A stretch of 64,000 bases of DNA. Origin: Massilia atriviolacea. GTDB lineage: Bacteria > Pseudomonadota > Gammaproteobacteria > Burkholderiales > Burkholderiaceae_D. Below the pieces are notes generated by a model. It did no database searches. It saw only the letters and a list, made by a program, of their open reading frames with translations, and was not told where the DNA came from. Position 1 is the first letter of the stretch. Each line of letters starts with the position of its first letter. A program made the translations under genes and the position numbers. Positions 34,024-41,244 of this stretch are shown piece by piece. The stretch covers positions 248,001 to 312,000 of the forward strand of contig NZ_RXLQ01000008.1 of NCBI RefSeq assembly GCF_003953935.1, read 5' to 3'.

Positions 34024-35070
34024 TCAGCGCTTGCGGCGCGCGCCCGCCAGGCCGGCCAGGCCAAGCAGGAACAGTCCGACCGCGCCCGGCTCGGGAACCA
34101 CGTTCCAGCCGATCACGTCGAAATACTGCTTGTCCAGCGCCGACAGCGTGAGTTTTTCGCCGAAACCGGCGGTCGGGTCGAGCAGGCCGAGGTTCATGTC
34201 GTCCTGCCAGTGGCTGGCCTGCTGGCCGTCGCCGTACACCGAACCGGTGGAGAAGGTCGCCAGCGTGGTCTGGCATTTATCGAGCGAGAAGTACTTGGTG
34301 CGCGTGTCGGCCGACCAGTCCAGGTCGGCCGCTTTCTTTGCGCTGTGCGATGAGCAGCGATACAGGTCGCCCGGGGCGATGAAGGTAAACTCGGCGTCGG
34401 CATAGTCGCCGTCACGGTTGTAGTCGAGGATGTCGACGCCGCTGATGAAGCCGAGCGCGTGGCCGATTTCGTGCGCGGCCACGCCGATGAAGTCGTAGGC
34501 CTTGCCGTCGACGCCATTGTCCGGATCGAAGTCCCAGTCGAACAGGCTGCTGAAATTGATTTCGCCGTCGGAGACGTCGTCCTTGGCGTCGGCCAGGCCG
34601 ACCGCGCGCGCATTGGCGCGGGTCATGAAGATGCTGCTGTTGTTGGCGTCGCAGTTATCGTCCAGGAAGGGCGTGGCGCTGCCGATGCCCGACGGGTTGG
34701 TGCCGGTGCCGTTCATGATGACATTCAGGCAGCTGCTGGTCGACAGGTTCGCCACGGCCTGCTTGTCGTTGCCGCTCCAGGCATCCTTGGCAAGCGCATT
34801 GCGGTAATCGTCGTAGCTGAACAGTTCGCGGGTCGAGGCGGTCGAACCGAGCACGCCCGGTTCCAGTTCCATGAAGCCGATGTTCAGGTTGACCTGTACA
34901 TTATCCTGCAACACATTGGTCCAGCGCGCGGCAGCGGCCTGGAAACCGGCCAGCGCCAGCGGGTCCATGCCGGGCGCCGAGGTGAAATTGATGACGAGGG
35001 CCTGGGCCGAGCCGGCGTAAGCGCACAGGAGGACCGGCGCGATCTTCAGTAGACGTTTGAGGTTTTTCAT
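34024..35070 (-). CDS. PEP-CTERM-sorted metalloprotease-like protein
   Basis: This 348-residue exported protein starts with a signal peptide (MKNLKRLLKIAPVLLCAYAG). It ends with a textbook PEP-CTERM tail: VPEPGAVGLFLLGLAGLAG followed by ARRKR. Such tails are cut by exosortase, which is not encoded in this window. In the middle is GVAAHEIGHALGF, the HExxHxxGF zinc motif of metzincin-type proteases, so it is likely an active surface or matrix protease of the NF038122-like group. The motif TGTCGGA-N3-CTTTACA lies about 190 bases upstream. Genes with this tail usually serve extracellular matrix and floc formation. Confidence 0.9.
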   Translation of the reverse strand: MKNLKRLLKIAPVLLCAYAGSAQALVINFTSAPGMDPLALAGFQAAAARWTNVLQDNVQVNLNIGFMELEPGVLGSTASTRELFSYDDYRNALAKDAWSGNDKQAVANLSTSSCLNVIMNGTGTNPSGIGSATPFLDDNCDANNSSIFMTRANARAVGLADAKDDVSDGEINFSSLFDWDFDPDNGVDGKAYDFIGVAAHEIGHALGFISGVDILDYNRDGDYADAEFTFIAPGDLYRCSSHSAKKAADLDWSADTRTKYFSLDKCQTTLATFSTGSVYGDGQQASHWQDDMNLGLLDPTAGFGEKLTLSALDKQYFDVIGWNVVPEPGAVGLFLLGLAGLAGARRKR

Positions 35071-35260
35071 TTCCGCTTTTCAAGGTGTCGCTGATTGCTA
35101 TCAGACTGTGATTATATTTTTAACCATGCTTGGTGCAATATGGCATTGCCCGCATGGCTTACTCTCAAAAGCGTATTTTAAAAGCAAGTTTCGCGCCTGA
35201 AACTTAACCCCTTGTTCCTGAACATGAAATTATGGGTGGGGGCGGATTTGACAGTTGCAC

Positions 35261-35277
35261 TGTAAAGATATCCGACA
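35261..35277 (-). promoter_or_regulatory. TGTCGGA-N3-CTTTACA motif, copy 2
   Basis: Read on the minus strand, the sequence is TGTCGGAtatCTTTACA, directed toward the PEP-CTERM gene. It matches the site at 23714-23730 at all 14 non-spacer bases. It is followed by ACAGTGCAACTGT, a small inverted repeat partly overlapping it. I infer a shared regulator or promoter class. Confidence 0.6.
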
Positions 35278-35287
35278 TTGCTGGGCA

Positions 35288-35329
35288 GAAAAAAACCGCC
35301 ATGCCTGCGCGCTGCAGGGATGGCGGTTA
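35288..35329 (-). terminator. Terminator of the receiver-rod gene
   Basis: On the minus strand, AACCGCCAT pairs with ATGGCGGTT (35320-35328 with 35294-35302) and is followed by seven T. It begins 23 bases after the stop codon of the gene at 35352. Confidence 0.85.
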
Positions 35330-35351
35330 TGTTGGAGAGGAAGCGTGCCGT

Positions 35352-37406
35352 TCAGGCGCGGCCTTCGCGCATGAAGCGCTGGATGTGATCGAGCATCACG
35401 GCGTCCGAATACGGTTTGCCGAGCAGGACATCGACACCGGCTTCGGCGGCCTTGACCTGGTAGCTTTCTTCGGCACTGATCATGATCACGGGAATGTGCG
35501 CCGTCAGGGGATTCTGGCGCACGTGCCTGGTCAGGTCGAAGCCGTTCATGCCCGGCATTTCGACGTCGGTGATGAGCACGTCGGGCATGCGCTCGGCGAT
35601 CTGCTTCATCGCGTCGAGGCCGTCTTCGGCCATCGCCACCTGGAACTGGTTGTTGATCAGCAAACGGTTGGTTTTGACCCGCACCACTTTGGAATCGTCG
35701 GCGATCATGACCACGGTGTCGGTGGCGACCTTGGGCTGGTGGACCCGCTTGACAGGGGATGCCTCGGCCGGCGGCGCGGCGGGCACGCTCGCGGCAGCGG
35801 CAAGGCGTGCGGCTTCTTCCGCTGCGAGACGCTCGGCTTCCGCACGTGCCGCTTGTTCGGCGGCGAGACGCTCGGCTTCCACGCGTGCTGCCTGCTCAGC
35901 GGCGACGCGTTCAGCTTCGAGGCGTGCCGCTTGCTCTGCGGCGACGCGCTCGGCTTCGATCCGTGCCGCTTGCTCTGCCGCGACGCGCTCGGCTTCCGCG
36001 CGTGCCGCTTGTTCCGCCGCGACGCGTTCGGCTTCGGCGCGTGCCGCTTGTTCGGCAGCAAGGCGCTCGGCTTCCGCGCGTGCCGCTTGTTCCGCCGCGA
36101 CGCGTTCGGCTTCGGCGCGTGCCGCTTGTTCGGCAGCAAGGCGCTCGGCTTCCGCGCGTGCCGCTTGTTCCGCCGCGACGCGTTCGGCTTCGGCACGGGC
36201 AGCCTGTTCCGCCGCAAGGCGCTCGGCCTCGAGGCGGGCGGCTTGTTCGGCTGCTACGCGTTCAGCTTCCTGCTCTGCCTGCAGACGCGCAGCCTCGGCG
36301 TCGGCGCGGCGTTGTTCTTCCATGCGCGCCGCTGCTTCGGCAGCGAGGCGCTCGGCTTCGATGCGGGCCGCTTCTTCCGCAGCCAGCCGTTCGGCTTCAC
36401 GCTGCGCGGCCTCTTCGGCAGCGATGCGCTCGGCCTCGCGCTGGGCCGCTTCGAGGGCGGCGATGCGCTCCGCTTCCACTTGCGCGGCGTGTTCATCGGC
36501 AAGGCGCCTGGCTTCCAGTTGTGCCGCCTGCTCGTCGGCAATGCGCTTCGCTTCCAGCTGCGCGGCCTGCTCGTCGGCCTGGCGTTGGGCTTCCAGTTGC
36601 GCCGCCTGCTCGTCGGCGATGCGTTTCGCTTCCAGCTGCGCGGCCTGCTCATCGGCCAGGCGGATCGCCTCCAGCTGCGCCGCTTGCTCATCGGCGATGC
36701 GCTTCGCTTGCGCCTGGGTCGCCTGTTCAGCGGCCAGCCGCTGCGCTTCCAGCTGCGCCGCCTGCTCGTCGGCGAGGCGTTGCGCTTCCTGCCGGGCAGC
36801 CTCTTCGGCGGCCAGGCGTTCCGCTTCCATGCGGGCGATATTGATGGCGGCGATGCGTTCGGCTTCCACGCGAACGGCTGCGTCGAAGGCGGCGCGCGCC
36901 GCTTCGGCACGTGCCGCTTCTTCGGCGGCAAGACGTTCTTCTTCGAGGCGCGCCGCTTCCAGGGCGGCCAGGCGTTCCGCTTCCTCGCGTTCGGCTTCGG
37001 CTGCCGCCAGTCGCTCGGCTTCCAGGCGCGCCGCTTCCTCGGCGGCGGCCACGCGTTCGGCGTCCAGGCGGGCCGCTTCGCGGATCTCCTCCAGCCGCGC
37101 TTCCTCTTCGATGCGGGCTTGTTCCAGTGCCGCCAGGCGGTCGTGCTCGGCTTGCGCGCGCGCTTCGGCGATCAGGCGCGCTTCTTCGACGCGGGCGGCT
37201 TCCTCGGCCGCTTCCTTCTCGGCTTGCTGGCGCGCGAAGCTCTTCGCTTGCACGTTCGCATCGACCAGGCTCGGTTCGTCGCGCTGTTGCAGCGCCTTGA
37301 TTTCGCGTTCGCGCAGCTTGTACATGAGCACGCGATAGCCCACGTAGAGCAACACGATGATCAAAACGCCTATGCCGACATTGGTTTCGTAACTTAAAGT
37401 AAACAC
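35352..37406 (-). CDS. Membrane-anchored helical rod carrying a C-terminal response-regulator receiver
   Basis: This 684-residue protein has an unusual layout. Residues about 10-30 ([20 protein letters not shown]) form one membrane anchor. Residues about 31-540 are an Ala/Glu/Arg/Gln-rich helix made of variants of [13 protein letters not shown], repeating mostly every 13 residues, like TolA domain II or a single alpha helix. Residues about 562-684 form a complete receiver domain: acidic pair Asp570-Asp571, phospho-acceptor Asp614 in LITDVEMPG, and Lys664 in LLGKPYS. There is no DNA-binding or enzymatic output. If fully helical, the rod would be about 75 nm long. No histidine kinase is adjacent. 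It could be a tethered phosphate-dependent docking protein, for example in chemotaxis or motility. Domain calls are firm; the role is inferred. Confidence 0.85.
35985..36197. repeat. 78-bp near-identical repeats inside the rod gene
   Basis: A 78-base unit beginning GCGCTCGGCTTCCGCGCGTG starts at 35985, 36063 and 36141. The first two copies are identical to the base and the third runs most of a unit before diverging. Each unit encodes two 13-residue blocks alternating Leu and Val. Perfect identity at synonymous sites points to recent expansion or gene conversion. Confidence 0.85.
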
Positions 37407-37652: not shown

Positions 37653-37676
37653 AAAAAAGCCGGCGCATGCCGGCTT
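37653..37676 (-). terminator. Terminator of katE
   Basis: The stem AAGCCGGC / GCCGGCTT (37657-37664 and 37669-37676) with loop GCAT is followed on the minus strand by a T run. It starts 18 bases after the katE stop. The rest of the gap 37407-37694 carries the promoter region of the rod gene; I see no clear consensus there. Confidence 0.85.
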
Positions 37677-37694
37677 TACCACACCTGTTGTTGC

Positions 37695-40109: not shown

Positions 40110-40272
40110 GGATTACCTCTTAGAAAGAGTGGGGCCGGCGCCCCTGGCCTGTCGAGTTTGCATCGCTGCCGCCGCGTGGAATTGATCATGGACAGGCGAT
40201 GCGGCGCGGGAGATCAGGGCGCCGCCACAGGTGTTACGCTGTCGGCTGGACGAACCGACATGGATATGGTGT

Positions 40273-41244
40273 ATGAGGATGCTTTCCGAAACTTGCCGGG
40301 CCTTGCTCGAACGCAGCAAGCGCTTCGGGCCGCTGTACGGCGACCGGCTCGCCAATCACTTGCCGATGACGTTGATCGCGCTCGACCGCATGGGCGCGCC
40401 GGCCGGGCACATGGAGCGCGCTTACGAGGCCAATGCCCGCCAATTGCGGCTGCGCGACGGCGATATCGGCCCCGTGACGGACGCGGCCGACTGGCTGGGC
40501 AAGGGCCGCAATGCCGGCGGGCTGGAATTATATTTCCGGGCCTGCGCAGGCCGCGACGGGCTCGACGCCGTGTTGCGCGCATGGGTGCCGCGCCTGTTGC
40601 CGGGGGTGGCGGCGTCGGCCTTCCATTGCCTGATCCGGCTGGCGTATGCCATCGATGCCGGCGAGCAGGATGAGGCTTGCGCGGCGCTGGCGTACTGGGT
40701 CATGGAATACGTGAGCCTGGATTTGCCGGATGACACGGTGAACGAGGCGCCGGCCGCCATTGCGGCACGCCTGGCGCGCGCGGTGGCCGGGCACGCGCCG
40801 TGGAGCGGCATCATCATCGACCGCATGCGGCAGGCGGCGGCGCATCCCGGCGTGGCCGGGACCGCGCTCCAGCCGTCTGGCCTCGACTTGCGGCAAGTGG
40901 CGCAGTTCGCGCTCGGCGCCTACCATGCGCGCGAAGATTTCACGCTGTTGCACACGGTCACGGCGTGCCACGCGTTCCGTCTGCTGCTGCCGTATGCGGG
41001 CCAGCCGCAGCGGGCCCTGCGCTACCTGTGGGAGGCGGTGGTGGTGGCCACGCTGACGGTCGAGGCCAGCGGCGCCGCCAGTCCCGCCGCCGCCGCGCAC
41101 CTCGACTGGAAGGAGTGCCTCGCCCATGCCGCGCGGGCCACCGATGCGCACGTCGTCAAGCTATGCTGGTCGGCCTACTGCGAAGACCTTGTTGACCGCG
41201 ATCCGCGCTACCTGGCGATTGCCGCGCGCAAGCTCGCCATGTAA
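40273..41244 (+). CDS. Questin oxidase family protein (DUF4243-like)
   Basis: The 323-residue product matches the questin oxidase family, whose fungal members open anthraquinone rings by a Baeyer-Villiger reaction; bacterial members are uncharacterised. Family features are NHLPMTLIALDRMGA near the N-terminus, LPGVAASAFHCLIRLAYAID, an ALAYWVMEY segment, and YHAREDFTLLHTVTACHAFR near the C-terminus. It is mostly helical with no cofactor motif. The start is ATG 40273, with a second in-frame ATG two codons later. A small exported protein gene follows 17 bases downstream. Confidence 0.75.
   Translation: MRMLSETCRALLERSKRFGPLYGDRLANHLPMTLIALDRMGAPAGHMERAYEANARQLRLRDGDIGPVTDAADWLGKGRNAGGLELYFRACAGRDGLDAVLRAWVPRLLPGVAASAFHCLIRLAYAIDAGEQDEACAALAYWVMEYVSLDLPDDTVNEAPAAIAARLARAVAGHAPWSGIIIDRMRQAAAHPGVAGTALQPSGLDLRQVAQFALGAYHAREDFTLLHTVTACHAFRLLLPYAGQPQRALRYLWEAVVVATLTVEASGAASPAAAAHLDWKECLAHAARATDAHVVKLCWSAYCEDLVDRDPRYLAIAARKLAM

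Follow-up and report, generated by a model that had tools for sequence, protein, structure and literature searches.

The window, by which the whole analysed stretch of 64,000 nucleotides is meant, contains at 35352..37406 on the minus strand a gene encoding a 684-residue protein with a GTG start. This start and an upstream GACGGAG, which by its sequence is read as Shine-Dalgarno-like, are common to six close orthologues and three further copies from the genus. From N- to C-terminus the protein consists of a transmembrane (TM) helix (residues 10-28), a long rod (46-541), a linker and a receiver domain. The first-pass annotation had described an N-terminal anchor, roughly 500 residues of charged Ala-rich sequence and a complete receiver with no output, and all of these parts were recovered. 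Comparison with four orthologues gave dN/dS values of 0.10, 0.06, 0.04 and 0.08 for the receiver and of 0.24, 0.27, 0.21 and 0.31 for the N-terminal 60 residues; those of the rod (0.12, 0.13, 0.13 and 0.22) are rough, since its repeats had to be aligned. The Pro/Ala linker (residues 542-564; 35715..35783, minus strand) had the highest dN of the four protein parts in all four comparisons. By these measures the minus-strand frame bears marks of selection, and the rod is under purifying selection while its length varies. An antisense ORF of 721 aa on the plus strand (35232-37397) spans nearly the entire gene and is most likely a by-product of codon composition.

Directly 3' of the rod gene lies an intrinsic-terminator-like hairpin (35288..35328, minus strand; -23.8 kcal/mol, z -5.25) followed by T7, which was absent from the list of the terminator scan, was spotted by eye and was then folded. 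A second terminator-like hairpin, also folded (37656..37677, minus strand; z -4.21), follows the upstream catalase gene. Overall, the simple scan yielded 4 terminator-like sites, compared with 5.1 for shuffled sequence, and detected no sigma-70-type promoter. The two folded hairpins, rather than the overall scan result, are the basis for regarding the rod gene as probably a single-gene transcription unit.

Neighbouring gene families were scanned in the window and read from ORF starts in relatives. The seven close copies are accompanied by genes for a catalase, a PEP-CTERM metalloprotease and what we take to be a ClpB-like protein. In the window, the metalloprotease gene (NF038122 family with a PEP-CTERM sorting signal; 34024-35070, minus strand) adjoins the rod gene, and a questin oxidase-like gene (40231-41244, plus strand) lies beyond the catalase. 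In one relative (G013, L018:9061-11069), the catalase region is made up of frames of 458 and 220 aa and not of one of about 800 aa, which may be a frame break or a gene-picking artefact. In G007, G012 and G014, the rod gene directly follows two c-di-GMP genes on the same strand (L060:1651-7143, L061:1244-6748 and L059:3890-9442); Pfam scans of all three assigned to them the domains response regulator (weak)/DUF3369/GGDEF/EAL and Reg_prop/Y_Y_Y/GGDEF. Four genomes from the window's clade lack this linkage: their DUF3369 gene is located 1.6 Mb from the rod gene in G010 and on another contig in G000, G002 and G016. In the window's genome, the DUF3369 gene is on a contig other than that of the rod gene. 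The neighbourhoods of the remaining rod copies differ from one another. Across the neighbourhoods read, neither a constant partner gene nor pil or chp genes beside the rod gene were found, and none of six scanned neighbour proteins contained a histidine kinase domain. A plasmid origin of the gene was also considered and rejected, as a plasmid collection gave no near match.

The TM helix (37323..37379, minus strand) has a mean hydropathy of 2.28, and AlphaFold models a helix at residues 6-40. No Lys or Arg precedes it and five follow; in all 15 full copies of the protein, 0-2 such residues are found before the helix and 4-7 within 15 residues after it. An N-out/C-in orientation is predicted by the positive-inside rule, a rule of thumb, and would place the receiver in the cytoplasm.

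The rod (35784..37271, minus strand) is the longest Pro/Gly-free stretch of the protein, with 496 residues of which 37% are Ala and 39% are charged, and is composed of Ala/Glu/Arg-rich 13-residue repeats. Its self-identity is 0.65, 0.63 and 0.58 at shifts of 13, 26 and 39, with 0.31 as the next best value among shifts 3-44, and its coding sequence has a DNA period of 39. Compared with 300 composition-keeping shuffles, opposite charges are enriched at i+3 (z 5.3) and i+4 (z 8.9) and like charges are depleted at these spacings (z -6.9 and -5.8). The largest power of big hydrophobic residues at 97-104 degrees per residue was 1.2, versus a mean maximum of 3.4 in shuffles, and the 13-residue repeat accounts, as a harmonic, for a hydrophobic peak at 83 degrees. 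The rod as a whole showed neither heptad nor hendecad periodicity; local heptad power, calculated without a shuffled control, was 0.0-1.6 in 33 segments of 42 residues. The rod thus displays the opposite-charge excess, the high charge and the lack of a heptad stripe by which single alpha-helices are recognized, and it fits this type better than a coiled coil, as the first-pass annotation had proposed.

In an AlphaFold model, weak because it was based on five sequences, the rod is formed by helices 48-239 and 256-504, between which the chain is broken at 240-255. The pLDDT of the rod is mostly 70-90, falling below 50 at 242-251 and 527-541; the whole model has a mean pLDDT of 69.7 and a pTM of 0.22, and the receiver blocks reach 33-64. 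The helicity of the rod is supported by this model. At 0.15 nm per residue, one straight helix would measure 74 nm; a single unbroken helix of the roughly 75 nm given in the first-pass annotation is not borne out by the model. Close orthologues, with receivers 93-98% identical to that of the window, are up to 88 residues shorter, and their rods differ by indels of 13, 26 and 52 residues besides others. Total protein length lies between 596 and 684 residues among seven close copies; across all 15 it spans 461-847 residues, with a longest Pro/Gly-free stretch of 132-496. All 12 copies from the genus keep the 13-residue repeat, which does not hold in three copies from a second genus. Because rod length changes among orthologues, its reach varies and a set distance is not kept. 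The possibility that the repeat is shared with other proteins was rejected: a search of the own genome at E 1e-10, in which 150 of 253 candidates were scored, gave six matches, all inside the rod gene.

The receiver domain (residues 565-684; 35355..35714, minus strand) is matched by PF00072 at residues 566-675 with 83.9 bits, compared to a curated cut-off of 30.2. The match covers positions 1-110 of the 111 in the profile and stops nine residues short of the C-terminus, and by this profile the receiver fold is settled. No other Pfam family was identified in the 684-residue protein at E 0.001, including any output domain or the Hpt, HATPase and CheW domains of a kinase, and the best 25 of 67 NCBIfam families match the receiver region only. 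The acidic pocket (D570 and D571), the phospho-acceptor D614 (35565..35567, minus strand) and K664 are kept in 15/15 rod receivers, and the numbering of Asp614 given in the first-pass annotation was confirmed. Three residues before the Lys (K-3), at the switch position occupied by Tyr106 in CheY, Leu661 (35424..35426, minus strand) is found, and Leu is present in all 15 rod receivers. All 27 receivers of the type found in the pilus kinase ChpA that were aligned have Tyr (21) or Phe (6) here, and among other receivers 12 of the 13 scored have Tyr or Phe and one has His, a 14th without KP motif having been dropped from this count. A looser pattern scan of other loci gave Tyr or Phe in 58/58 of the non-rod receivers that it caught; the receiver with His was missed by the pattern. 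Rod and ChpA-type receivers are also fixed differently at five further positions (569, 574, 594, 612 and 619), and at 615 in 26 of the 27. According to the accessible sections of PMC1974792, burial of Tyr106 upon phosphorylation gives CheY a higher affinity for its targets. A phosphorylatable receiver without this switch has the expected look of a phosphate sink, judging from its residues, but another mode of output could apply, and loss of one switch residue is not proof that output is lost.

In total, 15 full rod-receiver copies were identified, 12 of them from the same genus (11 of its 17 genomes) and three from a second genus (3 of 43 genomes). No further copies were found in the family, order and class samples at the thresholds used, where at most 11 (family, order) or 16 (class) candidates were scored per genome and more diverged relatives could be missed. 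With the N-terminal 57 residues as query, 7 of 60 relatives were matched, all from the same genus. Among 392 family genomes the same query matched 11, seven of which are real and four of which (L008-L011) are apparently unrelated on reading, as is locus L016. The receiver query at E 1e-30 matched 24 of the 392 family genomes. Of these, nine have ChpA-like kinase frames, and the others belong to the same genus (12) or to the second genus (three). Eleven of the 12 same-genus genomes carry full copies, and five of the 17 gave no receiver match. The copy in the twelfth (G006, 48% complete) contains a stop within the match and is broken in frame, and it was left out of all protein counts. One genome (G011) carries two diverged copies (L062 and L063) on different contigs. 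In the order sample, the receiver query matched 33 of 399 genomes: the own genome and 32 others, of which 31 have frames of 1689-2342 aa and the last has a 650-aa frame that is a kinase end on reading. In the class sample (E 1e-28), 12 of 274 were matched, the own genome plus 11 with nine frames of 1625-1910 aa and two kinase ends (1206 and 235 aa). Taken together, the non-rod matches number 52 (9 family, 32 order, 11 class); 47 are in frames measuring 1625-2360 aa, and the five shorter frames are kinase ends on reading. The 47 long frames are called ChpA-type by length only, the long kinase of the window's genome having been scanned with Pfam.

This kinase, of 1947 aa, contains the nearest receiver in the own genome (43% identity, E 1.3e-27; next best 2.3e-17) among at least 150 Response_reg matches (150 of 193 candidates scored). 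Its Pfam domains are Hpt, H-kinase_dim, HATPase, CheW and receiver. Upstream on the same strand lie two genes for single receivers, one for CheW and one for a receptor with MCPsignal and PilJ domains, and from these neighbours it follows that the protein is the pilus (Chp) kinase. The genes of such a cluster are presumably PilG, PilH, PilI, PilJ and ChpA. The layout matches that of the type IV pilus Chp cluster, as given in the available part of PMC12632253. A pilus-specific Pfam name was found for the receptor, and no pilus-specific NCBIfam name occurred among the best 25 of 104 matches for the kinase or the best 25 of 96 for one neighbouring receiver.

In a tree, the 15 rod receivers form one clade (100/100), which groups with 27 ChpA-type receivers (82/83), the own one and 26 hand-picked from 48 ChpA-like loci. 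The bootstrap had not settled, and the 14 outside receivers, 10 of which are the query's next best hits, are long-branched. ChpA-type receivers appear to be the nearest kin of the rod receivers, which group with them with moderate support and may be either nested among them or their sister. The first-pass annotation had suggested searching for the cognate kinase by co-occurrence. However, the Chp-type kinase core is present in 21/21 genomes checked, including six without a rod gene, which makes its co-occurrence uninformative.

The reading tentatively preferred here is that a ChpA-like receiver on a membrane leash acts on a Chp-type kinase as a tethered phosphate sink or decoy, in which we infer both the partner and the role as a sink. 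One TM helix and a long single-alpha-helix leash would tie a receiver of the ChpA kind to the inner membrane. There it would accept phosphoryl groups from the Hpt domains of the kinase, like the kinase's own receiver, and their hydrolysis on the leashed receiver would lower or localize signalling to PilG/PilH-like regulators. The leash would hold the receiver near the membrane, where chemosensory arrays sit, yet allow it to sweep tens of nanometres.

Precedents for such a role are found among hybrid CheA proteins. In the accessible part of PMC10782961, their C-terminal receivers are described as commonly being phosphate sinks, as shown in Helicobacter pylori; the ChpA receiver of Pseudomonas aeruginosa is treated as a possible sink and/or source of phosphoryl groups, and that of A. 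caulinodans CheA as apparently no sink. The FrzE receiver is likely a phosphate sink (PMC4546325, as far as available), and the ChpA receiver is essential for twitching (PMC12632253, likewise). Given the A. caulinodans case and the need for the ChpA receiver in twitching, a ChpA-like receiver may do more than act as a sink, and the five positions fixed differently in the rod receivers may mean that they have another partner. The naming of the kinase as Chp has become firmer, whereas its link to the rod protein has not, and the odds for the sink are therefore unchanged. The wider proposition, held with less confidence, is that the module is derived from, or shares its origin with, a pilus-type CheA receiver and became a stand-alone, output-dead, membrane-leashed phosphate sink, its reach set by a fast-evolving leash, for spatial control of chemosensory phosphate flow.

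A possible explanation that follows closely is that the protein is a localized output protein of the FrzS/AglZ or PilG kind. Here the receiver would itself be the output, docking on a polar or pilus complex upon phosphorylation or partner binding, and the leash would link this complex to the membrane. Receiver-only regulators commonly work through protein binding, and the strong conservation of the receiver (dN/dS 0.04-0.10) is in line with such a function. FrzS, a receiver with a coiled coil of 258 residues, moves between the poles in pilus motility without Asp phosphorylation, but the output-face aromatic switch that it needs (both from the accessible sections of PMC1974792) is the residue replaced by Leu in all rods, and the neighbourhoods lack a constant partner gene.

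It is unlikely that the partner kinase of the rod receiver is one different from ChpA, such as a member of a c-di-GMP circuit. The two c-di-GMP genes preceding the rod gene in three genomes would fit this, but the DUF3369 gene is unlinked in the four window-clade genomes and the six scanned neighbours lack a histidine kinase domain. Still less probable is a dimeric stalk, in which the rod would form a coiled coil, dimeric or Ala-rich. Single helices and coiled coils are readily mistaken for one another, the coil of INCENP had been predicted to be a coiled coil according to the accessible literature, and a one-chain AlphaFold model cannot discriminate between the two; the rod, however, lacks heptad and hendecad periodicity and has the i+3/i+4 opposite charges of single helices. 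A ruler of fixed length, which would keep phospho-acceptor and membrane a constant distance apart as the first-pass annotation had envisaged, has in its favour a rod of 74 nm if straight, but is rejected on account of the free variation in length among close orthologues (up to 88 residues shorter) and relatives (Pro/Gly-free stretches of 132-496 residues), and the modelled break at 240-255 also opposes it. Of the other roles named in the first-pass annotation, a phosphate sink is still viable, and the evidence is neutral towards a link between the envelope and a cytoplasmic complex.

No published description of a TM-rod-receiver layout was found in the open-access literature, among the titles and abstracts listed, which is weak evidence of novelty as subscription papers mostly fall outside such a search. 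Neither the resemblance to ChpA receivers nor the loss of the switch aromatic had been recognized in the first-pass annotation. If the tethered sink is real, the family is a natural experiment in which a receiver was cut off a hybrid CheA and put on a leash. The role of hybrid-CheA receivers as sink, relay or brake, discussed in the available parts of PMC10782961 and PMC4546325, could then be tested via a separate gene, open to deletion, shortening or recoding with the kinase untouched. Helix biophysics would also profit from a bacterial candidate for a single helix of about 500 residues that comes in natural length variants.

Several known systems resemble the rod protein in part. TolA likewise has an N-terminal TM helix, a helical domain that is long in E. 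coli and many gammaproteobacteria, and a small C-terminal domain, but its domain II has 110-335 residues compared to 496 in the rod (PMC12204202, accessible part). The SHLS motif of TolA/TonB is absent from the first 60 residues of 15/15 rod copies, and a TolA-like periplasmic rod is rejected on this ground together with the C-in charge bias, a rule of thumb. Stable single alpha-helix (SAH) domains of myosins and INCENP are long and highly charged like the rod, and are described in the literature available to us as a leash or spring. They have the same i+3/i+4 opposite charges, and the rod, known here from sequence alone, differs by its Ala-rich 13-residue repeat and the attached receiver. FrzS and AglZ of Myxococcus xanthus also combine, in the accounts available, a receiver-type domain and a long helical segment with no classical output. 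In FrzS, however, an N-terminal receiver is followed by a coiled coil, whereas the rod protein has a C-terminal receiver and no heptads; a TM helix is not mentioned for FrzS in the accessible sections of PMC1974792, and the rod protein has one. The FrzS receiver lacks the phospho-Asp and has kept the switch Tyr that it needs (same source), and the rod family is its mirror image. Nearest by sequence are the C-terminal receivers of ChpA-type (Tfp class) CheA proteins, which share with the rods the acidic pocket, the phospho-Asp, the Lys and the GKP(Y/F) motif. The ChpA-type receiver is built into a long multi-Hpt kinase as one of its domains and has a Tyr or Phe switch, whereas the rod receiver is free-standing, tethered to the membrane on its rod, and carries Leu and the other fixed differences.
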